Source: Ectocarpus siliculosus
Taxonomy: Eukaryota; Sar; Phaeophyceae; Ectocarpales; Ectocarpaceae
NCBI GenBank assembly: GCA_000310025.1
Contig: FN649730.1
Span: 1,528,226-1,552,476 of the forward strand
Reading direction: 5' to 3'
Length of the DNA: 24,251 bases
The position numbers and the translations under genes were made by a program. Under the pieces are notes generated by a model. The model was not told the origin of the DNA, ran no database searches, and was given only the letters and a program-made list of their open reading frames with translations. Of this stretch, positions 25-24,251 are shown one piece after another (within the stretch, counting starts at the first letter, position 1; the number at the start of each line of letters is the position of its first letter).

Positions 25-2241
25 GTGGGCGGGGACCTGATCAGTGCATCAGCGAAACAGTCAACCGTCGACCTCTCTAATATTCGGCGCCTTCAACAAT
101 CTCACTGCCTACCAGACCAAGCTAGGATGTGGGTGACGGACGATTTCGTTCCGGCTCACTTGCAAACAGCGACTGAGTTCTGGCGGGACGAAATTTTACA
201 GGATACTCCCGTTGGAGATCGCAATACCCTCTTGGGGTGGGTCAAAGGGGTCAACGTTTACGACTTTCGTAGACACAAAGGCAACAGGCATTTTTCACGG
301 TGCTTCGTACAACGGCGCTGACCTTACGTCAATACATCTGCCGAACCACGTTCCCGACGAACATGTATCATGGGTCACGAGCGAAGTCGCTAAGCTCGCA
401 GCGACAGGTTGCGTTGCGAGATGGAAGGACGTCGCCGACGTTAGCGTATACGCCAAACCGCAAATGGTGCTCCCGTTGGGTGTGGAGCCCACGAAACCCA
501 GGTTGATATGGGACGCACGGTGGCTTAATCTCATGTGCCGCCACCACCCTTTCAGCATGGATGGCGTAGGCAAGGTAGCTCAGTGCGCATGGCCCGGAGC
601 TCATCAAGTCACTATTGATCATAAGGCTGGATACCACCACGTTGCCCTAGATAAGGGTTCTTGGCAATATTTTGGCTTCGAGTGGGAAGGCGAGCTGTAC
701 GTGTTTACCGTGCTTGCTTTCGGGTGGTGTTCAGCCCCGTTCATATACGCTTCTCTTTCAGAGGCAGTCGCTCGATACCTGCGAGCAAGAGACATTCCCG
801 TGCTAAACATGGATAGACGATTTCTATTTGACCAATTTTCGATCCACCCGCACGCTCCGCTATGACGAGCAGCTCAAAGCAGCTCAGACGACCGCGTATG
901 TCGCACTAGAAGTTCTCTATAGCGCGGGATACTTCATTTCGCTGAAGAAGTGTGAGCTCATCCCTACGACGAGCTTGGTTTTCCTGGGGATTATCTGTGA
1001 CTCCGATAACAGGCGTTTCGAGGTCCCAGAGGACAAACTCGCCAAGCTCGAGGCGATTCTAGTCGACGCTATTGCGTCGGAGTCCATCACCTTTCAGATG
1101 TTAGAGAAGCTCGCAGGCAAGTGCACTAGTCTATCGGTAGCGGTTCCGGTGGCGGCTCTTTACACGCACCATATGTACAAGAGCATCGCAGTTTTCCAGC
1201 GACGCGGCGGTCGCAAGCCTAGCATGACGATACCAGTCCCAAAGAACAGCGGTCTTATGTTCGAGTTGAAACGCTGGTTGGAAGTTCGTGAGCATTTCAA
1301 CGGGGCGTCGTGGTACCGTGCCGAGCATAAGCAATTAGCTCTTACCGGGGCATCGGATGCCTCCTCGGGAGGATGGGGGGGACTCATTAGGAGTCCAGGG
1401 CCAACCCATTTTCAAAGCAGGCGGAGATTTCCCGCTACACGTCGCGCAGCAACATATCAACGTGCAGGAAGGGTACGCTCTCCAGCAGACTCTGCGTCTG
1501 TTTTCGGATAGCCAACCTTCTCAGTTGGCCGGGTCCACCCTCATTTCCAAGGTGGATAGCAAAGTCTTACACGACGCCTTTAAGAAAGGGCGGTCTTCCA
1601 ACACCCTCATGCATGAGATTATTACTGATCTGTTCTGGTTGCAAGTGCGACGCGATTTCACGCTGAAATTGAAGTGGGTGAGCTCCGAGGAAAACGCTGA
1701 GGCTGATGGTATTTCTAGACCAGGATCGGACGATTTTGTGAGACTAGATGAGCGGATGTTCGGCGACCTATGCGCGTGGGCGGGTGAGCAGGTGACCATG
1801 GATTTAATGGCCACACCCGCCTCGGTTCACAAGCGCTGGGTAGATGGGCGCTGCACTAGTGAGGATCTGCCATTTTACTCCAGATACCATACACAAGGGT
1901 GTGCCGGGGTTGACGTGCTTACGCAAAATGTTCGGTTCATGCCTGGTTCAACGACGGAGGAGTGTTTCGGTTTCTGCTTCCCTCCGACGAGCATGGTAGG
2001 AGTGTTTCTTCAGCACTTGGAGGAGTGTCGCGCAAAGGCGCTTGTGATCGTCCCAGATCGGAAGCAGTACTGGTTTCCACGGATAGCGGACGCGGCTACG
2101 CGATCACGGACGTTGTCGATCGGTAGCGGGGGTGAGTCACCCTTTTTCCGGGTACACCACCAGAAAGGGTCCGAGCGTTTTCATTTCAAACGGTCAGGAA
2201 TGCTAGCTGTGGTAGTGGATTTCGCCCGGAATGCTAAGTGA
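25..2241 (+). pseudogene. Frameshifted reverse transcriptase-RNase H of the DIRS-type element
   Basis: Three reading frames must be joined to read this protein: about 25-265, 265-812 and 812-1400, with the rest to 2241 in the frame of the first piece. RT motifs are KPRLIWDARWLN (~494-529), the first catalytic Asp in VTIDHKAGYHHV (Asp codon 617-619), and VLAFGWCSAPF (~713-745). The second catalytic pair is Asp-Asp in WIDDF (810-824), read in a different frame from the preceding VLN, so a shift falls exactly at the active site. RNase H follows: GASDASSGGWGG (~1348-1380), the Glu of NVQEGYAL after another shift, VDSK (~1552), and a C-terminal ADGISRP (~1702). The remainder, with DLMATPASVHKRW and FGFCFPP, matches the conserved post-RNase H region of DIRS elements, sometimes likened to a methyltransferase. 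The gene ends with TGA at 2239-2241. No single start codon can be chosen, because the true start may lie outside the window. Confidence 0.85.
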
Positions 2242-3805
2242 TGAAGAGTTCGTTCGGCTCGTTCTCAACGTGTCTCCTGTTCATGTTCGGTGGTTTGTGG
2301 GACAACGCATTCTTTACCAGGCTCTCCAGGCTGTGTTCACAGCCCTTGGCCTCATCGTGAGCATCTTAGAGGCGATAATTCCCAAGCGAGATCGTCTCGG
2401 CGAGGCGAAGCTTCCTCCTCCGCCGCTCGTGAAGGTGTCAGCATCGCGGGCACGGGTCTTATGCCCGGAGTGCCACAGTGAAAACGATGATTCGTTTCGG
2501 TTCTGTCAATGGTGCGGGTACTCAATAGCCCAGCACCAACCTCGGACAACACCTCCTCTTCAAGTGGACGAAGAGGCTATTTCAAGGCGATACCAACAAT
2601 TTCTAAATGCATGGGCGGAGAAAGCTTCCGCGCGCAGTCGGTCGGCCACATGGGCTTTGTTCAGCAACTTCCTAGCATCTCGAAGGAACGGGTCTGTGTC
2701 TATTGAAAATGCACAACCAAAGGATGTGGTAGAGTTCCTGTGCTGGTTAGACTCCTGCGGTTCAAGACGGCGTACAATCGTGCATGCTAAACACTGCGAA
2801 GCCGTGGGCACCAAAGATCTTACAGCTTGTTCAACAGACAAGGGAGAATGTAGCCTTAGATACGCCTTTGACTCTCTCCGAACAAATCATGTCTCCAAGT
2901 TATCCATGGTGTTCGAGAAGGAAATGGGAGTGGTGACACCGTGGAGCAAGACCATGCGGGTTGGTAACCCGGTGAAAAGCGAGCTAGTTGCGCAATATAT
3001 GGCGTTCACCACAAGTGAGCAAAAGCAGGCGGGAGTATTGGTGAAACAAGCACCGGTCATTCTTCGAAGCCATCTGGAGAAGATTATTTTTCCAATGCAG
3101 ATCAGGCTTCAATACGCCTCATCCGACGTCGAACGGGTTACGTTGGCTAGGGACATTGCGTTCTTTTCGGTGGCTTTTAGCACAACCAAGAGAGGAGTGG
3201 AGCTCACAAATATCCTCATCCAACGTATTTTGCGACTCCCAAATCGAAGCGGCCTCATGTGCAATTTTCAGTGGGGAAAAACCCAACGGGATGGAGCGGA
3301 TCATATCCTGACCGTACCGTATGATGAGGAATACGTGGCAATCTGCCCAGTTCGAGCGGTAGAGAGGTTTATAGCCGTGGGGAAGCAGGTCGGATGGGAC
3401 ACTACCTCAGGTTACCTTTTCCCAGACATAGCGGAGTCTATGCAAGGTGAAGCGCAGAGAGGCAAGTTGCCGGTGGCTACTAGCAGGATGTCTGAAGCAC
3501 TAAAGAGATACGCCGCGGCAGTAGGAGAGACCCAAGGGTTCTCTCTACACTCCTTTAGGTCAGGAGGGGCGGTTTCCAGAGCCCTCGCAGGAGATTCTCT
3601 ATCGACAATCATGCAGAAGGCATATTGGAAAAGTCCAAAGACTGCTTGGCGATACATGCGACTCATGGAAGTAGTGGCTCCAGGATCCGAGGGTACCGCC
3701 ATGGTCGAGGGAGTTTCAGAGGAACAATACAGGCAGTTGAATGAGTTCGGTTTGAGTGAACAGAGCCGATCGTTGTCAGCGTTTAGCAATAAGCCTTTGC
3801 TTTAG
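2231..3805 (+). CDS. Tyrosine recombinase with zinc ribbon and ALOG DNA-binding domain (DIRS-type)
   Basis: This uninterrupted frame of 524 codons encodes the DNA-joining enzyme of the DIRS element. Residues 78-95 form a zinc ribbon (C78, C81, C92, C95). Residues ~117-262 match the ALOG fold: a helical domain with VVEFLCWLDS and LRYAFDSLRTNHVSKL, interrupted by a Cys/His insert (H185, C189, C200, C207). ALOG domains are known from plant LSH/G1 regulators and were traced to DIRS1-type retroposons. The C-terminal half is the recombinase: R321 in TTKRGVEL, K350 in WGKT, H440 and R443 in HSFRSG, W466 in KAYWKS, and the probable nucleophile Y475 in WRYM. All core catalytic positions appear present. 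The ATG at 2231 overlaps the end of the RT frame by 11 bases, which would suit reinitiation after the RT stop; the alternative is a separate transcript. I am confident of the family and fairly confident of the ALOG call. Confidence 0.9.
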   Translation: MLSDEEFVRLVLNVSPVHVRWFVGQRILYQALQAVFTALGLIVSILEAIIPKRDRLGEAKLPPPPLVKVSASRARVLCPECHSENDDSFRFCQWCGYSIAQHQPRTTPPLQVDEEAISRRYQQFLNAWAEKASARSRSATWALFSNFLASRRNGSVSIENAQPKDVVEFLCWLDSCGSRRRTIVHAKHCEAVGTKDLTACSTDKGECSLRYAFDSLRTNHVSKLSMVFEKEMGVVTPWSKTMRVGNPVKSELVAQYMAFTTSEQKQAGVLVKQAPVILRSHLEKIIFPMQIRLQYASSDVERVTLARDIAFFSVAFSTTKRGVELTNILIQRILRLPNRSGLMCNFQWGKTQRDGADHILTVPYDEEYVAICPVRAVERFIAVGKQVGWDTTSGYLFPDIAESMQGEAQRGKLPVATSRMSEALKRYAAAVGETQGFSLHSFRSGGAVSRALAGDSLSTIMQKAYWKSPKTAWRYMRLMEVVAPGSEGTAMVEGVSEEQYRQLNEFGLSEQSRSLSAFSNKPLL

Positions 3806-4025: not shown

Positions 4026-4520
4026 ACATAGACTTTTTTTTTTTTTTCTTCACTTCAAATCAGCGCTCACAGCACTAGTGCCGTTTATTCCAACCCGTGG
4101 TCACACAGAAGAGCCTATCTCTACCCTCCCCTCCTGCGGTACTTCACCTTCAATTTTTAATGCGAGAAGAGTTCAGCACTCTCTTCCCTCTGTGTACACA
4201 CGAACTAGCGCTATCCACTTGGCCAGGAGCGGAAGCGAGAGAAAAACTCACTTTGCAAGAACAGCTCGCCTACGCCGGGATTCGAACCGGGTACCCCTGA
4301 CCTGACCTCTAGAAGTGTTTTTTTTTTTTTTGTTCTTCACTTCAAATCAGCGCTCACAGCACTAGTAGCGCGGTTTATTCCAACCCGTGGTCACACAGAA
4401 GAGCCTCTCTTTACCCTCCCCTCCTGCGGTACTTTGCCTTCGATTTTTAATGCGAGAAGAGTTCAGCACTCTCAGAAGGTTACGAGGCTACCAACTAGAC
4501 CACCGGGGCGACCGGCTACT
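4026..4520 (-). mobile_element. SINE copy A, tRNA-headed, interrupted by copy B
   Basis: Read on the minus strand, the element starts at ~4518 with a tRNA-like head (CCGGTCGCCCCGGTGG, then an A-box-like TGGTCTAGTTGG). It continues after the nested copy with a B-box-like GGTTCGAATCCC (~4278-4291), a ~200-bp body, and a 14-base A tail (T run 4034-4047 on the plus strand). A-box and B-box are the internal RNA polymerase III promoter. The body holds a second A-box-like string, TGGCCAAGTGGATAGCG, near 4215-4231. The host copy is split at 4315/4474 by copy B. It shares body and head with copies at 5219-5535 and 8080-8375, so this is a repeated family here. Confidence 0.88.
4316..4473 (-). mobile_element. 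SINE copy B, 5'-truncated and nested within copy A
   Basis: The poly-T run 4318-4331 is followed by the family's 3' body and stops abruptly at 4473, so the tRNA head is missing. AGAAG occurs at 4311-4315 and again at 4474-4478, where the head of copy A resumes. This is a 5-bp target duplication and shows that B inserted into A after A was in place. 5' truncation is typical of target-primed reverse transcription. Confidence 0.85.
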
Positions 4521-4535
4521 ATATGCAGCAACAGA

Positions 4536-5218
4536 AAAAAAAGGCCTGATGTTTGCTGTTGTCTGTCTCTTCAACTGTTGTGCTGCTGTTGCAATAGGCG
4601 AATAGTAAGTGACGAGCATCGCCTACGCGAGAAACGCGTGCAGCCCAAAGCGACAGAAGACTGAAGCAATTCAGTAACAGCCGTATACACTCACGAAGAA
4701 AATCACAAAAAAAGAAAAGGAAAGATTGTGGCGCGCAGCACGCAGGACCCTCTTCCGCTGTTCAACCGGCCGTTCCCATGGCGACACAGACAAGGAACAG
4801 TCCAGCCCGAGTTGTGTCGGCCACAGCTGGTGGAAGCGGCTGAAACTTGGGGAGGGGTAATGGTTTGCGATTGTCTACCGAACCATACTTCGGGAGCCAC
4901 GAGATTTACGCTGTAGCTCGAGATCGGCATTTGAGACAGGGTCGGGCAGCTATGCGAGTAAGAGTTCCACCCACCCACGGATATTGAAAGATGAGATTGA
5001 AGCTAAAGCTTCAGAACTTAAGCTTCAGAACTCTCTTTTGATGCTACGTTTAGTGTACCACCACGTATGCATAGTGCGGTCCCGTACGCGTATATTGCGG
5101 CCTTGCACGCCCTTCTTGTGCCTGATATACGGGTGGCATTTGCAAGTGTCTCGAAAATCCTCCCTGTCCACGCAGTCGTTGTCTTGTGCCACAGGGCATG
5201 TTACCGTGATGTATAGCA
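4536..5218. other. Intergenic sequence without a recognisable gene
   Basis: No conserved protein or RNA is seen. The only structure noted is a 14-bp imperfect tandem repeat, AGCTTCAGAACTTA at 5007-5020 followed by AGCTTCAGAACTCT at 5021-5034. Confidence 0.5.
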
Positions 5219-5535
5219 GTATTTTCTTATTTTTTTGTCTTCACTTTAAATCAGCGCTCACAGCACTAGTGCCGTTTACTCCAACCCGTGGTCACACAGA
5301 AGAGCCCCTCTGAACCCTCCCCTCCTGCGGCACTTTCCCTTCGAGTTTTAATGCGAGAAGAGTTCAGCGCTTTCTTTCCTCTATGTACAGACGAACTACC
5401 GCTATCCACTAGGCCAGAAGCGGAAGCGAGAGAAAAACTCACTCTGCAAGAAAAGACGCTTACGCCAGTATTCGAACCCCTGACCTGACCTCTAGAAGGT
5501 TTCGAGGATACCAACTAGACCACCGGGGCGACCGG
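5219..5535 (-). mobile_element. SINE copy C, near full length
   Basis: This is the most complete minus-strand member of the family. It has a short T-rich tail at the plus-strand left, the ~200-bp body with a second A-box-like string (TGGCCTAGTGGATAGCG, near 5404-5420), a B-box-like GGTTCGAATACT (~5467-5480), and a head with TGGTCTAGTTGG ending in CCGGTCGCCCCGGTGG at ~5520-5535. No convincing target duplication was found by eye. Confidence 0.85.
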
Positions 5536-5980
5536 TTGCTTTGGTTGACCGCGAAAGCCCGGACGTCAGGTTTCTCGAACGCACACACTGCCGTTTTCCG
5601 TCTCGCTCATGCTCATTATTCTTCCACCCAAGTTACAAACATTCGATACGGTCTACTGCTGTAGACTATCTCTATGTACAATGCCTACCCGCCCCTTGGG
5701 CATCGGGCTCACCGCGCACTGGGGGCGAAGGGGCCTAATACTCGACATTTGAGCTTAACACCGACACAATGCATAGATGCATGTAATCTTCTCTTGATTT
5801 GGAATCCACCAGGACATCGATGAATCGATCGACTTACTACGAAGAACGGGGCTGGCTGCAAATGTGCTGCGGCGAAGAGCGTGGTCATTGACGTACATAT
5901 CTATGCTACTTTTGCCAGCTCTACAGAGTGGCCGCTTGCAGAGCATGGGTTCTCGGGGGGAGTGAGGGGTGGATCTGAAA
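5536..5980. other. Intergenic sequence without a recognisable gene
   Basis: No protein family, RNA gene or clear repeat was recognised on either strand. Confidence 0.5.
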
Positions 5981-7889: not shown

Positions 7890-8445
7890 CACGCGCCGTG
7901 CGTGCGAGTGTGCGAGTAGACCGCTAATAATGGTCAATCAACTTGTGTTCCGATTCACCCAAGTCCGGAAATGATTTTCAATCGTTTTTCTCTCTTCAAA
8001 TCCCGATTAAACCGGAGGAAGAACTTGTTACCCAATCAAATACCGAGTTATTTAGATATTGTATCCTTTTTTTTGCACTTGACCCTGGTGGTCTAGTTGG
8101 TAGTCTCGAAACCTTCTAGAGTCAGGTCAGGGGTTCGCATCTCGGCGTAAGCGAGCTTTTTTCTTGCATTGTAGTGAGGTTTTCTCTCGCTTCCGCTCCT
8201 GGCCTAGTGAGTAGCGCTAGTTCGTGTGTACACAGAGGGAAGAGAGTGCTGTGAACTCTTCTCGCTTTAAAGATCGAAGGCAAAGTACCGCAGGAGGGGA
8301 GGGTTCAGAAGGGCTCTTCTGTGTGACCACGGGTTGGAGTAAACGACACTACTAGTGCTGTGAGCGCTGATTTGACATATATACATATTTTGCCCCAATC
8401 TGGATGTGAAATCGAGGTTCAATAGTTAAACCCCGAGTTAGAACA
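7890..8445 (-). repeat. Diverged inverted copy of the MITE left arm, split by SINE copy D
   Basis: Read on the minus strand, 8445-8390 resembles the left end (CGATTTCACATCCAGATT against CGATTTCACTTCCCGATT). From 8050 to 7890 it resembles 6940-7110 (TTGATTGGGTAACAAGTTCT, TTGGGTGAATCGGAAC, ATTAGCGGTC). The two blocks are separated by the plus-strand SINE at 8080-8375. This indicates a second, older relative in inverse orientation, or an originally longer element reaching ~8445. Confidence 0.55.
8080..8375 (+). mobile_element. SINE copy D, plus strand
   Basis: The head carries an A-box TGGTCTAGTTGG (8089-8100) and a B-box-like GGTTCGCATCT (8132-8142). The body follows with a second A-box-like TGGCCTAGTG (8200-8209), and the 3' end is GCTGATTTGA without a clear A tail. 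It interrupts the diverged MITE-like arm, so it inserted later than that element. Confidence 0.85.
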
Positions 8446-10345: not shown

Positions 10346-10446
10346 GTATCTGCATCTACGTCCACTTAGGGTGGGCTATTGTTGTAGTATTTGAAGGTAG
10401 ACATGTGATCGTGGATGATCATGGTTATTTGGCGCCGTCGGATGCT

Positions 10447-10659: not shown

Positions 10660-11002
10660 TCGATTCTGAAGGAAGGGGTCAAATACCATTACAACTGGCA
10701 TACCCCCATGTAATGGAGCAACTAGTGTATGAGGATTGTACGAGCGTTTCATGAACGTTGTGTGAGCGCTTAATGGATATTTTGAATTTTCTTTGGATAT
10801 GGATATTTGGCGTCATTGAGGGGTGTTGAAGTAGCTTGAAGGAAGATCAAATCTCAGCTCCGCTCTCTCACTCTCTGAGTGGGCGCCGGGCGGACCTGGT
10901 CTAAGAAGGCTAAAACAAGAGATCAAACAACAACTGTGAGTACCCGAAGCCAGGAGCAACGAACTTGCTCCATTCCCTCTTTTATTTATCTGTTCCTCCA
11001 TA

Positions 11003-12043
11003 GCATTGTGGCGTCGTCTAGCATTTGAACACCGGTCCTTCGCTTCGGTGCCCATCGTTCGCGTGAACGTCTCGCATTTAGTCCTCTCGATTTTTTTTAA
11101 CTACCTGGTTTTAGAGAGCTAGGGCACGGTTTTGCTCTGATTCACTCGGTGGGGCACTTTTCGTTTTGACGTGTGCGTTTGCTCCGCGGTCGTGTGCGCG
11201 ACGGGCGTACAGGCCCCATGCGCGAGGTCCTCCCCTCGCATGGCTTTGTGTTCACCAAGGGACGGCTTGGTGGACGCTGGCCCTCCTTTCCCCATTTGCT
11301 CGGCAAACATGCTCGCGTTGGATTGCTCTCAATCCATGAATTCTTCGACCTCGTGCATGACGTGCATGTTACAAAATACATGCCCCTTTGGTCCCAACAC
11401 GACACCTCTCTGCCTGCTTTCGGGGGGAAGCCTTGCGCTTCTCACGCGCTTGGCTACCCCTCCCCGTGGCGGCGACAGGCTGCTGAATGACCGCTTTGCT
11501 GGCATGACTTGCTGCCGTCTGGTTGTAGGGGGGTGCGCTTGTTTGCACAATCGTTCACAGAGATCTCAGAAATCCGAGAAAAAGGTGCCATTTTTGAGCA
11601 TTTCGATCGGGGGCTTGTCTCCACCGATTTGTGGCCGGAGGACATTCTGCCGGCACCGGTTTCGGACCGTGTGTTACGTCTGCTGAACCACCGTTTTGTC
11701 AAGGCCGGTCGATCGAAGAGAAGGCCGCGCACGGCCACTTTGTCGGGGCGAAAAAATTCGTTCTTCGCATTCGCCTCACGATTTTTTCTTTCTAGATTTT
11801 GTTTCTGCTGCATCGTGCATTTGGTGTTTTCAAGATCAGCTCATCCCTTTTGCCCTCGCCGCTTTGAAGAGTTTGGATGGCAAGGGCTGGCACTCTCCCC
11901 GCGATTGGGTCTCGACCAGTCACTCGATCAGTGACTCGCCCGCTGATGATGCTATATTGCCGTCCTCTTTTCCTATTGCGGATGATGCCGCTGCTGTTCT
12001 GTCGTCTGTATTTCTCCCTGGGGACAACACACATGTGTCACCC
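11003..12043 (+). other. Untranslated leader of the LTR element
   Basis: About 1 kb separates the LTR from the first credible gag start. It begins with the candidate primer-binding site and otherwise shows no recognised protein or RNA. A long leader of this kind could hold packaging signals, but none can be identified by eye. Confidence 0.5.
11009..11033 (+). other. Candidate tRNA primer-binding site
   Basis: TGGCGTCGTCTAGCATTTGA starts 6-8 bases after the 5' LTR. TGG complements a tRNA CCA end, and ATTTGAAC about 11 bases on complements a tRNA T-loop (GTTCAAAT). Normal spacing would be about 13 bases, so the fit is imperfect. The primer tRNA cannot be named. Confidence 0.5.
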
Positions 12044-14218: not shown

Positions 14219-16503
14219 ATGTCTGCTGCCGCCATACCCCCGGTTAGTACTTTGCCGCCGCCCCACATCGCTGAGACTTCGGTCAAGCGACCCAACCCAT
14301 CGTTGACCACCCCGAGCCTGAGTTAGAACGTGCACGACAGTTATTGCATCGCATGTCTTTGTCGAGTTTCCCCCAGCAGCGGCAATCGTCGGCGACGGCG
14401 TCGCCGTCGGTAGCGGCTTTTGACGTGCCGTCGTCGAGACTGCCGTCGCCGGTGCCGTCGCCGCCGGTACCGCCGTTGCAGATGCCGCCGCAGCCGGTGC
14501 TGCAGCCGTCGGTGCCGTTGCCGCCAGTGCCAATACCGCAGGTACCGCAGCCGCCGGTGCTGCAGCCGCCGGTGCCGCAGTCGTCGGTGCCGAGGCCGCC
14601 GGTGCCGCCGCCGTCGGTGCCGCAGCCGTCGGTGCCGCCGCAGCCGCCGGTGCCACAGCCGCCGGTGACGCCACAACAGTCAGTGCCGTTAGTAAAGTCA
14701 GAGCCACCGTCAGTAGCCTCCACTTTGCCATCGCATGCATCATTTGCCGCTGTGAAAACAGAGGTACCGCCCTCCGCCTCCGTTGTGAAAACGGAGACGC
14801 ACAGGGTGGTACCGGCGCCCTCCCAACGTGTTTTGCCACAGGAACCACCGGTCTCGGCTATCGCGGTGTCGGTAGCGAGGGCGCCGCTGCCGGCCATGCA
14901 GGCGGCCGCAAGCGATTCCGCTGATGACCGGGCACTGCCCCTGTCGTCTGCCGGTGCACGTACCGCGCAGGCACAGCTTGATGCAAACGCGGTTGCCGCC
15001 GCAGAGGCGTACGCCCTCAGCGTGCCCAAAGGATACGGCAAGCTTAAAGTGAACGAATTGTATGCCGTAGCGCCGCTTCCCGCGGCAGAATTTTTGGCCT
15101 TCGCTCGTTCGACCGAAAGTGTGTTGGCTGAAATCCTGTCGGCCGCTGATCCTCCCGGCAAGCAGACCATCAAGTCGCCCTCATGGGTGGCTGGATGGTA
15201 TGCTCCCTTCCACAAGCGTGTCCTCATGGCCATTTCGAATCCTCAAGGCGCCAATGCCACAACCCGCGAGTTGGTGGATTCTTCGTTTTCTCAGGTGAAG
15301 CGTTTCTTGGAGACGATGGACAAGTCGGGGCCCTCGGCATACCGTAGGCTGCTCAAGCTGGTCGCGGACGAGTGGGAACCGAAAGGTTTCAACCGGGGCA
15401 TCGACAAGCTGCAAGATTTTGGTGTGCCCAACGGCATGCCGTAAAGCAAATTCGTTACGAAGTTTGAGGCGTTGGCAATGTCGGAGTTGGCCTCGCATAG
15501 GGCTTTCGCGCCGGATTTGCGCATGGTACAGCGTGCGCTTCGGGACGCTTTGTTGGAGCAGTACCCGAATGTTCTCTAGTCTTTGCCGTTGAAAGATAAG
15601 ATTCTCCATAACGTGGTGTTTAGTGATCAGGACGAGCTTTGGGATGCTTTGTCGTCGGAGGAAGCACTAAAACACTCCCCCGCCTGCAACGGCGACCGTT
15701 ATTTTACCACTGCCACCTCTGGGTTTTCATCGGCACCCACACGAGCCATGACTGCGACCGTGGGGCAGCAGCGGCCGCCACCGCCGCCGCCGCTGCAGCC
15801 GTCTGCGTGAACACAATTTCCCGCCGGGGTGATGGCCATCGACCCTGTGCCGTCCGATAACACATGTCAATTCGAGCAGGACTACGACTGCTGGCCGTTG
15901 CGTGGTCACTACGGCTTTGTGTACAGCATTGTGGCAAGTATGGCTAAGATGGACCCCCCTTTGTTTACACCGCTGTTGACCCCTGCCGACCGAGCGCAAG
16001 CTCTGCGGCAATTTTCTGGCCAATATCTCAACTGTGGGCAGGCAGGCCACAGTCTCAAAACTTGCCCGTATGTTTCCACCAATTACACCGGCCTCTTAAA
16101 CCCGGCCATTGCTTCGCATGCTGATAGCGTTCAGGTTTTTCAACGTTGGCAAAGCCGCATGAAGTCTCACCGCCCGCGTGTGCACAATAAAAATGGCCCG
16201 GGTAAGAGCAGCGGCCATACACAGGGCGACGGCCGCCGCTCTGGGAAACGTAACTCAACTACACACACACCACCTCCGGCGCCGGCCGTAGGCGCCGCCG
16301 CGACCCCGGCGCCCGCCGCCGTGCCTGGAACTCCGCACGCTTGGAGTTCCGGAACCCCGCACTCGCGCCGCACTCGCGGGGTAACTGACACGCCGGTGAC
16401 GGCCTTTTGCACACATCGCCGTCAACAGCACCGGGTGTGCGCTGTACGACTAGTTCCCAAGACGTTTGTTTCACACAGACGTCTTCGGGCTCGCCTATGC
16501 TAG
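14219..16503 (+). pseudogene. Gag, capsid-like and zinc-knuckle part, with five in-frame stops
   Basis: From about 14344 a single frame can be followed to 16503 through stops at 15442 (TAA), 15577 (TAG) and 15808 (TGA), ending at TAG 16501. It opens with a Pro/Val-rich repeat region (14430-14690). A region without low complexity then looks like a structured capsid (KGYGKLKVNELYAVAPLPAA, FARSTESVLAEIL, AWYAPFHKR-like and SQVKRFLETMDKSG, ~15030-15660). The zinc knuckle is YLNCGQAGHSLKTC (~16024-16065), where the first Cys of C-x2-C-x4-H-x4-C is Tyr (TAT at 16024-16026). A basic and Pro/Ala-rich tail follows. A short separate frame runs from the ATG at 14219, which directly abuts the previous stop (TAAATG), to a stop near 14326. 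The capsid assignment rests on position and composition; the knuckle rests on motif. Confidence 0.7.
14430..14690 (+). repeat. Pro/Val-rich low-complexity repeat (CCGCCGGTGCCGCAG-like)
   Basis: Degenerate 9-15-bp units built from CCGCCGGTG and CCGCAG encode runs such as VPQPPVLQPP and VPPPSVPQPS. They would give a flexible proline-rich spacer. The opposite strand is also open by composition, but there is no reason to think it is coding. Confidence 0.8.
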
Positions 16504-17228
16504 TTTCCCAACCGTTCATTTCTCAGATAACGCCCCACGGTTCACCATAGCCTGTTTTGGATGACCGTCGTGACTCGTCGGCGCTGAATATAGGTTTGTG
16601 GTGTGGGCGAGGGGTCGACCAGACTTCGGGTGTCTCACGGACGCTCGCCCCGATGTCTACGCCCCTCGGAGGCATGGATTCGGCTTCTCCCACCGTTTCG
16701 GCGGCTCCGGGTGGCCTCGTCAACCACGCTGGAGCACAGGGACCTTCGGGACAGCCGCAGGCCCGCCGCGGTGGCTCGAGTACGCTTGTACCCACCGCGC
16801 CCCCTCCGGACCCCTCGCGACGTTCCTCTACGCAGCACCAACGTTGCAAGGTGCTGACTGCACCGCCGTTGCCGAGCGCAGTAACTTTTTCCCCAAATCG
16901 GAAGGTTCATGTTGTTTGTCACGAAAAAGCGGTCCCGAGCCTCCCGCGGCCGCTGGCCATGTTGGTCGAGCGCCCGCGATGAAGGCCGCTTTTGATGAAA
17001 GGGCCTACGCCGACGTTTTGCGCGAAAACGCCCGCGTAGACCGCTTCGTTTCGCACGCTTCTGCGGCTGGTTCACCGCTTGGCCTGCCTCTCCTCGTAAC
17101 CCACAATTCGGCCCGCCTTCGGGTGGCACCCAGATTGTCCTGCCGGTTGCCGGTGCCATTTCTCTTGACGATATTTCTTCGCGGAAGGTAAGCGCACCCG
17201 CGCGGCAGGCCCCTGTTTTGGCGGTTGT
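16504..17228 (+). pseudogene. Low-complexity linker between Gag zinc knuckle and NADAR domain
   Basis: Protein-like composition moves between frames. About 16557-16982 is Ser/Pro/Gly-rich, ATG 16979 opens AFDERAYADVLRENARVDRF, and from about 17075 another frame reads PSGGTQIVLPVAGAISLDDI and on to ~17225. A further frame change then enters the NADAR domain. No fold was recognised, and Gag-to-Pol frameshifting could in principle lie here. Confidence 0.5.
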
Positions 17229-17715
17229 CAGGAATACTATAACGATGAGTTTTTCCTCTTTTGGAAACCGCCGTCCTTTCTGTCTAACTGGACGCCCTGT
17301 GAGTTCTCGGTTCATGGCATTCGCTACGTGTGCGGCGAACAGTTCATGATGGCGGAGAAAGCCCGCATTCTCGGCGATGATGCCGCTTATGCTAAAATCA
17401 TGGCTACCTCCGACCCGAGAGAACACAAGTCCCTTGGTCGCAAGGTACGCGGTTTTGACCATGCCCTATGGGAGCTCCTACGCGAGGATGTTGTCTTTTC
17501 GCTTTTGTATGCAAAATTCGCCCAAAACGCTGACGCGCGTGAACGTTTGTTGGCTACGGGTGATAGACAGATAGCAGAGGCCAGTCCTTATGACGGATTA
17601 TGGGGCATTGGTGTTGATGCCTTCGATCCGCGTGCGGCGTCGCCCTCCAAGTGGACTGGTAAAAACCTCTTGGGCAAAGCGCTTGTTGCGACGCGCACGC
17701 TTCTGCGTGTGCGCC
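17229..17715 (+). CDS. NADAR (YbiA/DUF1768) domain within the retrotransposon polyprotein
   Basis: A continuous frame of ~160 codons carries the family's landmarks in order: an aromatic start EYYNDEFFLFW (17232-17264), the FLSNW motif (~17277-17291), CGEQFMMAEKA with its conserved Glu (codon 17337-17339) and Lys (17358-17360), SDPREHKSLGRKV (~17409-17447), YAKFAQN, LLATGDRQIAEASP, YDGLWGIG (Trp codon 17601-17603), and GKNLLGKALVATR (~17658-17696). NADAR proteins act on N-glycosidic bonds. E. coli YbiA cleaves riboflavin-pathway intermediates, and bacterial NADARs remove ADP-ribose from guanine in DNA in toxin-antitoxin systems. The domain lies after gag and directly before the protease, with no stop between, so it would be made as part of Gag-Pol and possibly enclosed in particles. 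Its job here is unknown. The candidates are removal of ADP-ribose from element nucleic acid or protein, handling of NAD-linked RNA, or a captured host gene kept as a passenger. It is free of stops and indels in a badly decayed polyprotein. Confidence 0.9.
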
Positions 17716-18380
17716 CGGTCGAACCCGATGAGCCTTTACGCCCTGAACACTCGGGGCAACCTGCCCCGGTGTGTTCCACTATCCACGAAATTTCGCCCCC
17801 GGGTGAGGACTCTTCGGCCAATGATTCCTCGCCCGAGGATGCGCGTGGCCCGCTGGACGTGCCAGCCAACACGCCCGCGGACCACTCGAAACAGGTGCTG
17901 CACATTGCCTCGGCTGCTTTTCGCGAAGCCGCTGCTTCCCCACCGCCGCTGTTGGCGGAACACGGCCCAGATTTGGTGAGCGGTGATATTGTAGTAGATT
18001 GCGATACCTCTACGACGCGAGTCCGTGTGCACAGTGGTACCGGAGCCGTGTGTACAGCGCCTGGTGTAGCCCTTTTGAACTCGGGCTCACCTTCATCTTT
18101 CATTAGTGATGCTTTTCTTGAAGCCATGGAGGCGTCAGGAGCTGCATCTATCCACAGTCGTTGGTCGGTGCCCGTTCGGCAGTGGGGTGGTTTTGGCTCT
18201 GGCAATGCTCTTGAAACCACCTCATCCGTGCGGCTGTCCGTTCAGTTTATTTATGGTAAATAATAGTGCCACCGCTTCGTTAGCCGTGTGGTTGTATGTT
18301 GTCCCAGCTGCCGCCATAGGTCACGCCCTCCTTCTTGGACGTGATAGTTGGATGTGTTTTAACTCTCGTTTGTCCACTAC
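17716..18380 (+). pseudogene. Retropepsin-like aspartic protease, active-site Asp replaced
   Basis: The frame continues from NADAR through an acidic, Pro-rich spacer (~17716-17950) to a protease. The active-site loop reads VALLNSGSPSSFIS, where the family has D-S/T-G: the codon at 18078-18080 is AAC, consistent with a G-to-A change in GAC. The first frame stops with TAA at 18261. The C-terminal half continues one frame over, with AIGHALLLGRDSW (~18313-18348) matching the late L-L-G-R-D retropepsin motif. The protease would release Gag, NADAR, RT and integrase from the polyprotein. This copy could not do so, because it lacks the catalytic Asp and is split by a frame change between ~18220 and 18262. 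Confidence 0.75.
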
Positions 18381-19024: not shown

Positions 19025-20400
19025 TACATGACTCGGGTTGGACCCCGGAAGCCATCAACAGCCTGGCGGATGTGCTGTGTGACTTTTCGGATGTGTTTTC
19101 GCGGTCACCGTCCGATTTCGGTTGCTGTTCCGTGAAACCGTTTCATATGGAAGGGCCCCCGGGCACGAAACTGTTGGCCTCGCGTCCCTATAGGCTCAAC
19201 CCTCTGGTGGAGAAAAAGGTCGATGCAATTCTCGATCAATACTTTGCTGCCGGTCTTATTCAGCACTCGCAATCGCCGTGGGCGAGCCCTCTGGTTGTCA
19301 TGCCTAAAAAGGACGGCAATCTGCGTTTCACCGTGAACTACAAAAATCTAAACAAATTGTGCAGCCTTGGCCAACAACCGCAGCCGCGTGTTGACCACAT
19401 CATCGATTCCCTGCACAAGGGCAAGGTGTTTTCCATTTTCGATCTCAACTCCGCTTTCCACCAGATCACCGTCAAAGAGGACACGTTTCAGGTTACGGCG
19501 TTTTGTACGCCCGCGCAACTTTTCGAGTGGCTCCGGATGCCTCAGGGAAGCTCCGTGGCACCGTCGTCATTCACCATGGTCATCAACGAAGTGGTTCAAG
19601 GTCTGGACCATGTGCCTGCATACCTGGACGATGTGATTGTGTTTGACGCCGACCCCATCCACCATGTCGCCAACATACGGTTAGTTTGGAGCGTTTGCGC
19701 AAGTACAACCCCAAGCTTTCTCCTTTCAAGAGTCGCGTCGGCGCTAAGGAGGCTGTTTATTTAGGCCACAGCATCTCCCCTGCGGGTGTTAGTCCTCGTG
19801 CCGATAAGGTCGAAGCCCTCACAAAAATGCCGCTGCCTAGCAACATCAAGCAGCTGCGTTCCTTGCTGGGTGGGCTTTCGTATTGCCGCAAATTCATCAA
19901 GGGTTTGGCCATGCGCGTGTGGGACGCTGTCGCGGATGGCAGCCGCCCTCTCCGGCTTTGCTGTGACGCATTTATGGATGGTTTTGGTGCGGCCCTTGAA
20001 CAGGAACAGGCCGATGGTTCCGTCCGCCCCATTCTGTTCGTTCGCCGCTCTACGCTCGAATCCGAGCTGAATTGGACAGTGCTCGACTTGGAGGCTGGAA
20101 GTATCGTGTGGGCAATCAAACGCCTACGCGGTTATTTTTGGTCTACGCACTTTCTGATGTTTTCGGATCACAAGGCTTTGGAGAGCATCGTCAAGGTGGG
20201 TGAACACAACGCCCGCGTCCAACGTCGGCTCGAGTTCCTTTCCTCGTTCAATTACAATGGAGAGCATCGTCAAGGTGGGTGAACACAACGCCCGCGTCCA
20301 ACGTTGGCTCGAGTTCCTTTCCTCGTTCAATTACACCCTTGTCTACCGCAAAGGCACTGCCAACGCCAATGCGGTTTTTCTTTTGCGGTTGCCCTTGCCG
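19025..20400 (+). pseudogene. Ty3/Gypsy reverse transcriptase and RNase H, frameshifted with a connection deletion
   Basis: RT lies in one frame from ~19030 to 19680: LASRPYRLNPLVEKKVDAIL, GLIQHSQSPWASPLVVMPKK, LRFTVNYKNLNKL, then the first Asp in FSIFDLNSAFHQI (codon 19441-19443), the LRMPQGSSVAPSSF motif, and an intact YLDD (19621-19632). A frame change near 19680 leads to LSPFKSRVGAKEAVYLGH and LRSLLGGLSYCRKFI. At ~19917 the sequence jumps from GLAMR to VWDAVADG, omitting the usual connection of roughly 50-60 residues. RNase H follows: DAFMDGFGAALEQ (Asp codon 19965-19967), DLEAGSIVWAIKRLRGYFW and FSDHKAL. A 79-bp tandem duplication then breaks the frame. The closing motif reads NANAVFLLRLP where the family has an acidic residue before F-L-S-R-L. 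RT copies element RNA to DNA and RNase H removes the template. Confidence 0.88.
20179..20336 (+). repeat. 79-bp tandem duplication within RNase H
   Basis: Bases 20179-20257 recur at 20258-20336 with one difference (CGTCGGCTC against CGTTGGCTC). Only the second copy runs on into the expected LVYRKGTANANA sequence. Because 79 is not a multiple of three, the duplication shifts the frame. Confidence 0.9.
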
Positions 20401-21132: not shown

Positions 21133-22460
21133 GTGGTGCCGCCCACGGCCGCTGAGGAAGCTCACCTCCGCGACTGTGTGCATACATTCTCGCATGCCGA
21201 TTGGGCCCGAGAAAAGCTGTCGGAAAGTGAGTGTATGGCGGCTATACATTTTTCGTCTTTGGGATCCCCGGCGGTGTTGCCGGATACTTTCTGGGATTGC
21301 TTGCCCTGTGCGCGACGGCCGGCGTTCTCTGATGCTGTCGCCCTCGTATCTAAAACATGCCTGGACACTACAGAAGATGGTACGCGATTGTTGGTGCGAA
21401 ACTCTGCCCCGCTGCCTCTCGGTAGTTCGGGCCGGCGTATCACTCGCCTCCCGCCTTCGAAGACTCCGCGCATGTACGTGCCTATGCTGTTGCGACCTTG
21501 GGTCCTACCAGCATGTCACACCACCGCGACTTTTCACCTGGGCACCGCTCGGACTTTACATATGTTGGAGCGATTTTTCTGGTGGATTGGGATGGACTTG
21601 TCCGTTTGTTGGTGCCTTCGGCATTGTTTAATTTGCCAAGCGCGCAAGACTTCCCGGCAAACGTATCGCTGGCCTACGCTCACTCTATCCCTCCCGAATG
21701 GGCTGGATATTGTAGTGAGTGTCATTTTTTTGGGTCATTGCCGGTTACGTCCCATGGGAATGCATATATGCTTTTGTATACGGACCGTTTTAGTCGACGG
21801 GCGGATATGTATGCCACTACCAAGGCGGAATTTACCGCTAAGGGAACCGATAACATTTTCGTCAACCGCTACATGGCGTTGTGGGGTTGTCCGGTGACTC
21901 TTCTTTCGGATAACGGTATGCAATTTTATACCAAACTGTCCATGGCTATTCACGAGCTGACGAAGATGAAGAAAGTCATCACCAGTTCGTACCACCCCCA
22001 AACTAACGGTGGGGCCGAGCGTGTTAACCACACCATGGCTCAAATGCTTGCTGTTGTGGTCAATGAGCGCCAGGACGATTGGGATGTCCATCTTCCCCAT
22101 GTCGAATTTGCATACAACAACTCGGTAAACACCGCCATAGGTTTGGTGCCGAATGAAGTGCATATTGGACGGTTGCCCCGTCTCCCGCTTTCCATTTTGG
22201 ACCACCCTAGCGTGGGTGGCCATCAAAGTTTGGATCGAGACCAGCTCGCTTTCTGCAATTTTGCGGTGGAACGCCAGAGACGAGCTTACGCGTTGGTGCG
22301 GGAACAACATGCGATTACGGTGTCGCATGTCGAACGTCGGAACTCTGCGCTGTTGGACGGTCTGCGTCAGATCCCGAAGTACGAAGTTGGTGGTTGGGCT
22401 TGGGTCTACAACTCCGCCGCTACTCTTCGGCAGGGTGTGCGGAAACACACCGATGATTTG
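21133..22460 (+). pseudogene. Retroviral-type integrase, zinc-binding and catalytic domains
   Basis: The zinc-binding domain is in the first frame, with His in ACHTTATFHLG (21517-21537) and Cys in CLICQARK, preceded by YVPMLLRPWVLP. The catalytic core is one frame over. Comparison with the family's V-D-F-x-G-x-L-P pattern suggests one G is missing at the first Asp codon (~21722-21724), so in the downstream frame the residue reads His. The second Asp is in LLSDNGMQF (21909-21911) and the Glu in GGAERVNHT (22017-22019). They are 35 residues apart, the classic D-x35-E spacing. SYHPQTNGG and DDWDVHLPHVEFAYNNS are also typical. Integrase would insert the element's DNA into the host chromosome. This copy is disabled by the shift at the active site. 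Confidence 0.88.
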
Positions 22461-23340
22461 GTGCTCAAACCGAAGCTTTCGCTCAACTACACCGGACCGA
22501 ATAAGATCCTTGCTGTTGGCCCGGCCAAAGCGGAGGATTCACCGGATGGGAAACCTGTGGAGCGCAAACTTCTCTACTTGGACCTGCCGCCAGACATGCT
22601 GGGACCAGAATCTCGCAACCGTGTCTCAGTCTTGCGGTGCAAACCGTGTACCAACCCATACGACACGGATGACCTGCCTAAGTATATGCCGGCCAATCTG
22701 TCGAAATATGTATTGCACTCGTATAGTAACAAGTCTCCCCCGTATAATTTGACTACTGATGATATTTTAGCGGAGTCCATTCGTCTGGATGTTGAGAATA
22801 TTTCGGGACACCAAATTGTACGTGGACGCGGTGGTGTGGTAGCCGTCTTGTACCTGACTCATTGGATGTGTTTGTTGACACCGTCGTGGGAAAGGGAGTC
22901 CGATTTGCAGGAATACAGAAAAAACATTTTGCTTTACTGGTCTGGTAACGCTAGTCAGCGCGTACAAGGGAACCGAGCTTATCGTAATGCTCGGATGGCT
23001 TCGGCCGACCGAGAACTTTCTCGGAATCAGGCCGAACGTTTCATTGCTCCCGGGTACGAGTTGGTCTCGCGTGACACTTGGTTGGCTCGCTTCTCTGTTT
23101 CTGTTTTGCCCGTCGGAGCCCACATTTGGTACAAAGCTTTGGATGGACTTTGGTGGCTTGGGCAGATTAGTAGTCTCGTAACAGGACAGTACATTGTTCG
23201 ATTTTTGGACACCCCCGGCCCTCGACAGCTTTCTCTCCCGGAGAATAGTTACTCCACTTCTCTCCCGGAGAATAGTTACTCCACGGTTTTGGATGCTCCG
23301 TGCGGCTCTTGGTGCTTGCAAAAACATCGTACTCGTGGTT
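22461..23340 (+). CDS. Integrase C-terminal region with chromodomain and Tudor-like domain
   Basis: This continues in the same frame as the integrase core from 21723, with no stop. It starts with an SH3-like part (DDLVLKPKLSLNYTGPNKIL). At ~22758-22945 comes a chromodomain-like segment: GGVVAVLYLTHWMCLLTPSW, then ERESDLQEYRKNILLYW, matching the Y-L-V-x-W ... S-W-E-x-E-x-D-L pattern. A second module at ~23085-23330 reads LPVGAHIWYKALDGLWWLGQ, QYIVRFLDTPG and GSWCLQKH. It is compatible with a Tudor/PWWP-type barrel, a class that binds modified histone tails. Chromodomains of chromoviruses direct integration to particular chromatin. Two readers in tandem suggest a combined mark is recognised, which is inference. 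The domain pair appears intact apart from a 27-bp in-frame duplication. Confidence 0.72.
23232..23285 (+). repeat. 27-bp in-frame tandem duplication (SLPENSYST twice)
   Basis: Two near-perfect 27-bp units at 23232-23258 and 23259-23285 duplicate nine residues within the Tudor-like domain without disturbing the frame. Confidence 0.9.
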
Positions 23341-23735
23341 TGACCAACCCTTCCACGGATGATGGCGTTACGTCGCGAACACCAGGCGCTGGATGTTGCC
23401 CCATCTGGATCTGTGCTTTGATATCATGCCGCCTACGGGCCGCTACATGTTTTTATGTATTGTTCTACATCGTACGCAGTGGTACGCTAACGCGTGTTTG
23501 TGGTGTGAGCTTCTTCTATTGTTGCAATAGTCACCCCGACCTTTGGGTGCCCAACGCGACCGAACCCCGTTTTGATTCAGACTGGTTCCGTCGTTGGCGA
23601 TGTGATTCTCAGTATGTGGTGTGGGGATGGTTTGGAGGATTTGTCGGGGATGAACTATTTTCTCCGACCCTAGTTGCTTTTATTTTATCTTATCTTTGTC
23701 TGATTTGGAAAGTCGCATCATCGATCTTTATTTGA
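23341..23735 (+). CDS. C-terminal extension of Pol with hydrophobic stretches
   Basis: The frame stays open to 23735, 25 bases short of the 3' LTR. The last ~130 residues include hydrophobic, Cys/Trp-rich stretches (CCPIWICALI, CFYVLFYIV, and near the end TLVAFILSYLCLIW) that could be read as membrane segments. The composition differs from the preceding domain, so this may be a frame carried past a lost stop into 3' untranslated sequence. No family was recognised. Confidence 0.35.
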
Positions 23736-23761: not shown

Positions 23762-24089
23762 TATCTGCATCTACGACTTCCCAGGGTGGGCTAATATAAT
23801 GGAGCAACTAGTGTATGAGCATTGTACGAGCGTTTCATGAACGTTGTATGAGCGCTTATTGGATATTTTGAATTTTCTTTGGATATGGATATTTGGCGTC
23901 GTTGAGGGGTATTGAAGTAGCTTGAAGGAAGATCAAAATCCCAGCCTCGCTCTCTCACTCTCCGAGTGGGCGCCGAGCGGACCTGGTCTAAGAAGGCTAA
24001 AACAAGAGATCAAACAACAACTGTGAGTACCCGAAGCCAGGAGCAACGCACTTGCTCCCTTCCCTCTTTTATTTCTCTGTTCCTCCATA
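23761..24089 (+). repeat. 3' LTR (shorter form, ~329 bp)
   Basis: Matches 10346-10377 and 10710-11002 of the 5' LTR, and lacks the 332 bases between. Hand comparison of the long block shows about a dozen substitutions and small indels over ~290 bp. Similarity ends after TTCCTCCATA. Confidence 0.88.
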
Positions 24090-24251
24090 TCACCCACCCC
24101 CCGGATTTGCCACGGATTCGACCAAGAGACAGACCTCTCACCACATCATCACATAGTTATCCCTCCATGATGGTCGGATCGTCACGAAACCTTGAAGGCT
24201 GTACGCACCACACCTGCAGGCGTCTTTGGAGCTAGTGGTGACTGCTGTGGG
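24090..24251. other. Flank downstream of the LTR element, nothing recognised
   Basis: 162 bases of unassigned sequence. They do not obviously match the 5' flank at ~10300-10345, so no target duplication is seen. No gene can be supported. Confidence 0.4.

Follow-up and report, generated by a model that had tools for sequence, protein, structure and literature searches.

What is a NADAR domain doing inside a retrotransposon? The question is raised by a 24,251-nucleotide stretch of the Ectocarpus siliculosus genome (contig FN649730.1, positions 1,528,226 to 1,552,476), referred to here as the window, which holds a single, decayed copy (~13.4 kb) of a Ty3/Gypsy long terminal repeat (LTR) retrotransposon with a NADAR domain (17229..17714, plus strand) between gag and protease. 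An earlier reading of the window made from its letters alone (the sequence-only reading) had pointed out the domain, suggested that it strips ADP-ribose from the element's own nucleic acids or particles or counters a host PARP/ART-type response, and asked whether NADAR-bearing retrotransposons are already described. They are, and the kind of element is known: the first report of NADAR-bearing Gypsy elements in Ectocarpus dates from 2025, with Gypsy-12_Ec32 of Ectocarpus sp. 7 as an example of such a lineage (PMC12477816). The main text of that paper contains none of the terms "readthrough," "stop codon" and "frameshift," and part 1 of its section 5 gives neither a selection test nor a NADAR-less sister; no other publication on NADAR/YbiA retrotransposons appears among the matches listed, as judged by their titles. 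As far as the literature was searched, the present analysis adds a selection test, a census of the active site, a NADAR-less relative, a host gene and a junction signal, and we observe that the domain is under purifying selection in three of five element families (A, B and E).

Identity and recurrence of the NADAR domain

An open frame of 364 amino acids (17169-18263) holds the NADAR domain followed by a retropepsin-like stretch. The Pfam NADAR profile (PF08719) matches residues 31 to 180 of this frame, corresponding to 17259-17708, over nearly its full length (profile positions 2-163 of 163; E = 7.3e-46, 156.8 bits versus a cut-off of 35.1), as the sequence-only reading had expected. All five landmarks on which that reading relied (EYYNDEFF, FLSNW, CGEQFMMAEK, YDGLWGIG and GKNLLG) occur in order in the translation of 17229-17714, and in the fold comparison that it had suggested the window domain has the NADAR/YbiA fold. 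A chance or spurious match is rejected by profile, fold and motif identity.

With respect to the active site, E37, K44, E117 and D122 are present in 43 of 43 NADAR copies of the genome and align to E43, K50, E125 and D130 of the Phytophthora enzyme; the catalytic set of E37, K44 and a YbiA-type second glutamate (E117) is complete in every one of these copies. The Phytophthora NADAR hydrolyzes guanine-ADP-ribose in vitro, and the residues that matter for this activity have been mapped (PMC11543638); the structure of the Phytophthora nicotianae domain (8bau) is an ADP-ribose complex. Furthermore, 21 of the 22 columns that are invariant in a 54-row homologue alignment, whose rows are mostly probably bacterial, are kept in all 41 copies of the column count (880 of 902 cells). 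Two loci, L049 and L050, were considered as divergent copies and rejected as such, since they belong to families B and E and are disturbed in frame; the residue count of 43 copies includes them, and the column count and the rate counts given below leave them out.

The genome searched (189 Mb in 492 contigs) yielded 230 NADAR candidates, of which 150 were scored, all of them over the cut-off. Twenty-two scored matches lie free of stops in frames of 2,014 to 2,580 amino acids, a count in which stretches of N would pass as open; the frame of L049 on contig C89, one of the 22, is disturbed within the domain. The NADARs at G000 C3:3913787 and C489:435177 lie in frames of 10,887 and 6,365 amino acids, probably an effect of N runs. 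From 40 loci read around the NADAR domain, together with two short ones and the window, we recognize five element families (A to E) that carry NADAR, with the window belonging to family E. Identity to the window's NADAR is 51 to 60% for the four other families, and identity of the reverse transcriptase (RT) is roughly 50 to 65%. Wherever the parts were located in families A to E, the order is zinc knuckle, NADAR, RT and RNase H, and the further copies with gag-NADAR-protease-RT order for which the sequence-only reading had proposed to search are found in five families.

Of 124 near-full-length RT matches (from 150 scored of 466 candidates, with 26 shorter ones dropped by eye), at least 109 are preceded by a NADAR, 105 of them by a NADAR match at most 4.5 kb upstream on the same strand and the others added from contigs C11, C63, C54 and C486. 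Of the remaining 15 RT matches, the sole one read, L051, has no NADAR. The domain is thus missing from one more distant element, as the sequence-only reading had allowed for, and not from the bulk of the related copies; a one-off host fragment is rejected, since the domain recurs in many copies and five families.

Matches to family A's NADAR-to-RT piece include twelve proteins named Ectocarpus sp. CCAP 1310/34, which align at 69 to 97% over parts of it, P0122 among them at 93% over 58% of the query, and further NADAR-RT proteins match nearly the whole family A query at 45 to 50% identity. The nearest named Ectocarpus match of family E is degraded (P0003, 64%). Among the further NADAR-RT proteins is an ENA protein cluster (P0129; 126 member sequences, NADAR-protease-RT) that lies on a 1.5-Mb contig, and its source is perhaps another genome rich in such elements.

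Selection and descent

Within-family ratios of nonsynonymous to synonymous differences (pN/pS; uncorrected and pooled over pairs with shared history) for NADAR are 0.14 (bootstrap range, 0.04-0.33) in family A, 0.08 (0.00-0.23) in family B and 0.21 (0.11-0.37) in family E. The corresponding values for families A, B, C, D and E are 0.24, 0.14, 0.20, 0.27 and 0.41 in the RT, 0.13, 1.30, 0.51, 0.33 and 0.33 in the protease part, and 0.89, 1.40, 0.63, 0.60 and 1.28 in the S/T/P-rich linker that precedes NADAR (16389..17228, plus strand, in the window; family E range, 0.82-2.34, from ~690 of these bases). Judging by these ratios, the constraint on NADAR in families A, B and E is similar to that on RT, beside a linker that is near-neutral. 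One truncated or downstream-broken copy per family was excluded from the rates by judgement (L034 in A, L041 in B, L012 in C, L016 in D and L025 in E), as was L046; pairs that overlapped poorly or differed by more than 15% were dropped, which concerned 9 of 45 pairs in the family E linker and none elsewhere. The outer bins of the binned counts are polluted by truncated or broken copies in families A, D and E. Neutral evolution, for which the sequence-only reading had wanted the domain checked, and with it a neutral passenger, is rejected by pN/pS for families A, B and E and not for C and D, whose ranges include values near 1.

As regards descent, the NADAR-less element L051 (contig C24), whose RT is 45% identical to that of family A, shares gag, in-frame stop, linker and protease with the NADAR families and has a frame of 2,005 amino acids downstream. 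The simplest reading of this one relative is that NADAR was inserted into the linker after the L051 line and the NADAR line had parted; alternatively, the L051 line may have lost it. Families B, C and D are grouped apart from A and E in both the NADAR tree (support, 98/95) and the RT tree (85/77), a pattern that common descent of domain and element would produce; the two trees differ on the branching inside B, C and D, and A and E are unjoined in the RT tree. The algal NADARs (26 element rows, 3 host-gene rows, P0002 and P0032) are separated with support of 97/95 from 44 rows that we labelled bacterial, few of which bear bacterial names. The trees neither establish nor reject a clade of element NADARs without the host gene (approximately unbiased test, P = 0.27), and the domain may have passed from host to element, from element to host, or from a third source to both. 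The host gene, L054 (G000 C24:2125101-2127250), is free-standing and matches P0016 of Ectocarpus sp. 13 AM-2016 in four pieces, three at 83, 90 and 95% and one, which runs into an intron, at 62%. Its N terminus carries a cysteine-rich motif (GCSRPCFIEPNG...HDYCGVTHG) that is common to Ectocarpus P0016 and P0030.

The presence of a related host gene, the state of the window copy, which is dead, and the lack of significant constraint in families C and D would all suit a fragment of host NADAR that was trapped by chance and is carried as a functionless passenger. Such a passenger would not be expected in the same place in five families, four of which differ by 40 to 49% from the window's NADAR, nor to keep 21 of its 22 key columns, nor to show pN/pS of 0.08 to 0.21 in three families (A, B and E) whose adjoining linker evolves almost neutrally, and we regard this explanation as very improbable.

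The gag-Pol junction and the window copy

In the 14 family copies examined, gag and NADAR-Pol are in the same frame with a stop between them, and some copies have further stops. The junction stop is TGA-C in 36 of 36 located copies out of 41 tried (A 8/8, B 5/6, C 12/12, D 3/4 and E 8/11), and TAG in L051. A helix of 6 to 10 bp starts 8 to 9 nt after the stop in six of six cases (families A to E and L051), as found in a stem scan with spacers of 7 to 9 nt and one mismatch allowed; for family E the member L027 was scanned (score 19). Background positions that match the helix score number 10 of 899 in family C, 0 of 899 in D and 0 of 407 in L051. By eye, the arms of the helix vary among families with pairing maintained: the first pair is C-G in C and D and T-A in A and E, and the third is G-C in C and D, A-T in E and G-T in A. 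From these sequence features we infer, with good reason, that the gag/NADAR-Pol junction is crossed by stop-codon readthrough. In the window, the conserved UGA lies at 16386..16388 (plus strand; an exact match to the family context), out of frame with NADAR in this copy, and a candidate readthrough hairpin with a 7-bp helix (16397-16403/16418-16424) occupies 16397..16424 on the same strand, 8 nt past the UGA.

All other parts of the element are on the plus strand as well. The 5' LTR (10709..11003, edges approximate) and the 3' LTR (23795..24091) form a direct repeat with 280 of 295 aligned bases identical; an additional LTR-like scrap lies at 10346-10378, and no clear target-site duplication was seen at the element ends when inspected by eye. 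The gag region holds a degenerate motif (16024..16065, translation YLNCGQAGHSLKTC; first C replaced by Y), which we take to be of the zinc-knuckle type and which reads CLNCGQAGHSLKTC in the family copy L027. The aspartic protease stretch (18006..18125) is matched by RVP_2 at residues 280 to 319 of the NADAR open frame (E = 0.045, under the cut-off), and since its motif is NSG in the window copy, with DSG or DTG in the frames of four other copies, the protease of this copy is probably inactive. Further downstream follow matches to RT (19303..19686; RVT_1, E = 1e-21), RNase H (19932..20249; PF17917, E = 4.7e-25; PF17919, E = 1.2e-15) and, weakly, the integrase core (21747..21965; rve, E = 0.00041, 21 bits versus a cut-off of 32.6). 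The domain order protease-RT-RNase H-integrase is thus present on one strand, the protease and integrase matches of this decayed copy falling short of their Pfam cut-offs. Within the RNase H part, a duplication of 78 bases lies at 20179-20335. The sequence-only description of a Gypsy-type Gag-Pol stands insofar as NADAR lies between gag and protease and shares one frame with the protease; it does not extend to the rest, as gag, NADAR-protease, RT and the later segments are each in different frames, and the window copy is dead.

A possible C-terminal chromodomain is located at 22791..22931 (Chromo, E = 0.14, under the cut-off); a C-terminal chromodomain is given for Gypsy-12_Ec32 in PMC12477816. 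A Tudor-like stretch was seen by eye past it at 22650-23400, where Pfam gives nothing, and a 15-base tandem repeat in the gag region (14397-14690) codes for a proline-rich stretch. Outside the element, positions 137-3805 hold part of another retroelement, with an RT match (E = 0.0011), zinc ribbons, an ALOG domain (E = 1.9e-9) and a weak tyrosine-recombinase match (E = 0.025), which we assume to be probably of the DIRS/Ngaro type. A short repeat is present at 4036-5540 and 8083-8375 in diverged copies of both orientations, direct and inverted; with tRNA-like box motifs seen by eye, it resembles a tRNA-derived short interspersed element. An ARAGORN scan found no tRNA genes in the window.

Possible function and known systems

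Since the domain is under selection in an element that copies itself, its activity should aid the element's own copying. The course of events that we favor is that a Ty3/Gypsy lineage acquired a YbiA-type NADAR, placed in the linker that separates the gag stop from the protease, where it would be made only upon ribosomal readthrough of the in-frame UGA and would then enter particles as the first Pol domain, at a low dose. It would act as an N-glycosidic hydrolase that takes off ADP-ribose, with guanine as the most likely base, or an adduct of a similar kind, and the removal of such adducts from element RNA or cDNA would unblock reverse transcription and integration; NADAR would in this way work as a nucleic-acid hygiene enzyme, like the betaretroviral dUTPase in the same place. 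An active hydrolase, with ADP-ribose on guanine as its first candidate substrate, is the functional reading best supported by the sequences, and to the whole claim of a readthrough-made NADAR that clears such adducts from element RNA or cDNA we give slightly less than an even chance. The sequence-only proposal of ADP-ribose removal or of a counter to a host PARP/ART-type response fits, because the key residues are kept and the host has a PARP-like gene, seen as PARP_reg and PARP matches that are both partial and lie 1.6 kb apart on one strand of contig C12. The host genome also has one macrodomain match; the ART family PF01129 has no match in it, which is uninformative, as the search control was silent in all 14 genomes.

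Several observations weigh against an active hydrolase made by readthrough. NADAR pN/pS is 0.54 (0.23-1.28) in family C and 0.37 (0.11-1.07) in family D, not distinct from that of their linkers, and 2 of the 26 element NADAR rows of the tree set, which are public gene models, depart from E-K-E-D (P0131 with N for K, and P0143 with R for both the second E and D). Taken singly, the helix is not unusual in families A (159/900 background positions), B (93/900) and E (63/899), and the Tca2 junction, in which an 8-nt spacer likewise follows the stop, gave no readthrough in yeast (PMC2194720). DarT (PF14487) has no match in the genome, in a search whose control was positive in 1 of 14 genomes. Lastly, the substrates of NADARs not associated with DarT1 may be different nucleobases or small molecules (PMC11543638).

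A second candidate is that NADAR acts on another N-glycoside, be it a damaged base or nucleotide or, as with E. coli YbiA, a metabolite of the riboflavin type, cleaning the nucleotide pool or the RNA template and not reversing ADP-ribosylation. The closest solved relative hydrolyzes guanine-ADP-ribose in vitro and its E43, K50, E125 and D130 are kept here, and we consider this candidate possible, if on the unlikely side. NADAR could also be a binding module that, by holding on to ADP-ribose in chromatin or at DNA breaks, guides the integration complex to these sites, much as chromodomains do on integrases, with catalysis being incidental. The chromatin-reader domains described for all four Ectocarpus Gypsy lineages (PMC12477816), the PARP-like host gene and the ADP-ribose complex of the Phytophthora structure are in line with such a role; the domain precedes the protease and does not adjoin the integrase, and the residues that PMC11543638 reports as essential for hydrolysis are present in all 43 copies, so that we judge a binding role to be unlikely.

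Returning to the favored hydrolase, if its substrate proves to be ADP-ribosylated guanine in RNA or DNA, this would suggest that ADP-ribosylation of nucleic acids does take place in this eukaryote. A further step, which we regard as rather improbable, is that brown algae ADP-ribosylate nucleic acids against reverse-transcribing elements, with the Gypsy NADAR, in the Gag-Pol readthrough product, as a counter-defence that would clear these marks from the element's RNA or cDNA, and the host NADAR as the cell's own eraser of the mark. The roles of NADAR enzymes other than those of DarT operons have been described as unclear (PMC11125620), and an element in well over a hundred copies, with the domain under selection in at least three families and a NADAR-less relative, constitutes a natural experiment on what the domain does.

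Among known systems, the NADAR of Phytophthora nicotianae (8bau) and YbiA of E. coli (2b3w) are stand-alone proteins, whereas the domain described here is part of Pol. The DarT-NADAR toxin-antitoxin operon encodes a member of the same superfamily with a DarT partner, none of which was found in this genome, and its NADARs belong to the BC4488 subfamily, in which D replaces the second E (PMC11543638). The NADARs in open reading frame 1 of Tx1 long interspersed elements of Crassostrea gigas were likewise captured by a retrotransposon, but a non-LTR one, and are divergent according to PMC12477816, on whose description this comparison is based. With respect to the junction, the gag-pol junctions of murine leukemia virus (MuLV) and Tca2 have an in-frame stop, an 8-nt spacer and an RNA structure, a layout that works in MuLV (PMC2194720) and that the algal junction would share; MuLV uses UAG, a purine-rich spacer and a working pseudoknot, whereas only a hairpin is predicted for the algal element. 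The betaretroviral dUTPase is, like NADAR, an extra nucleotide enzyme placed N-terminal of the protease (PMC1224870). As an enzyme, dUTPase is unrelated to NADAR. Betaretroviruses use frameshifting there and not a stop codon. In position and in kind of task, dUTPase would seem a fitting analogue of the NADAR domain carried by these algal elements.
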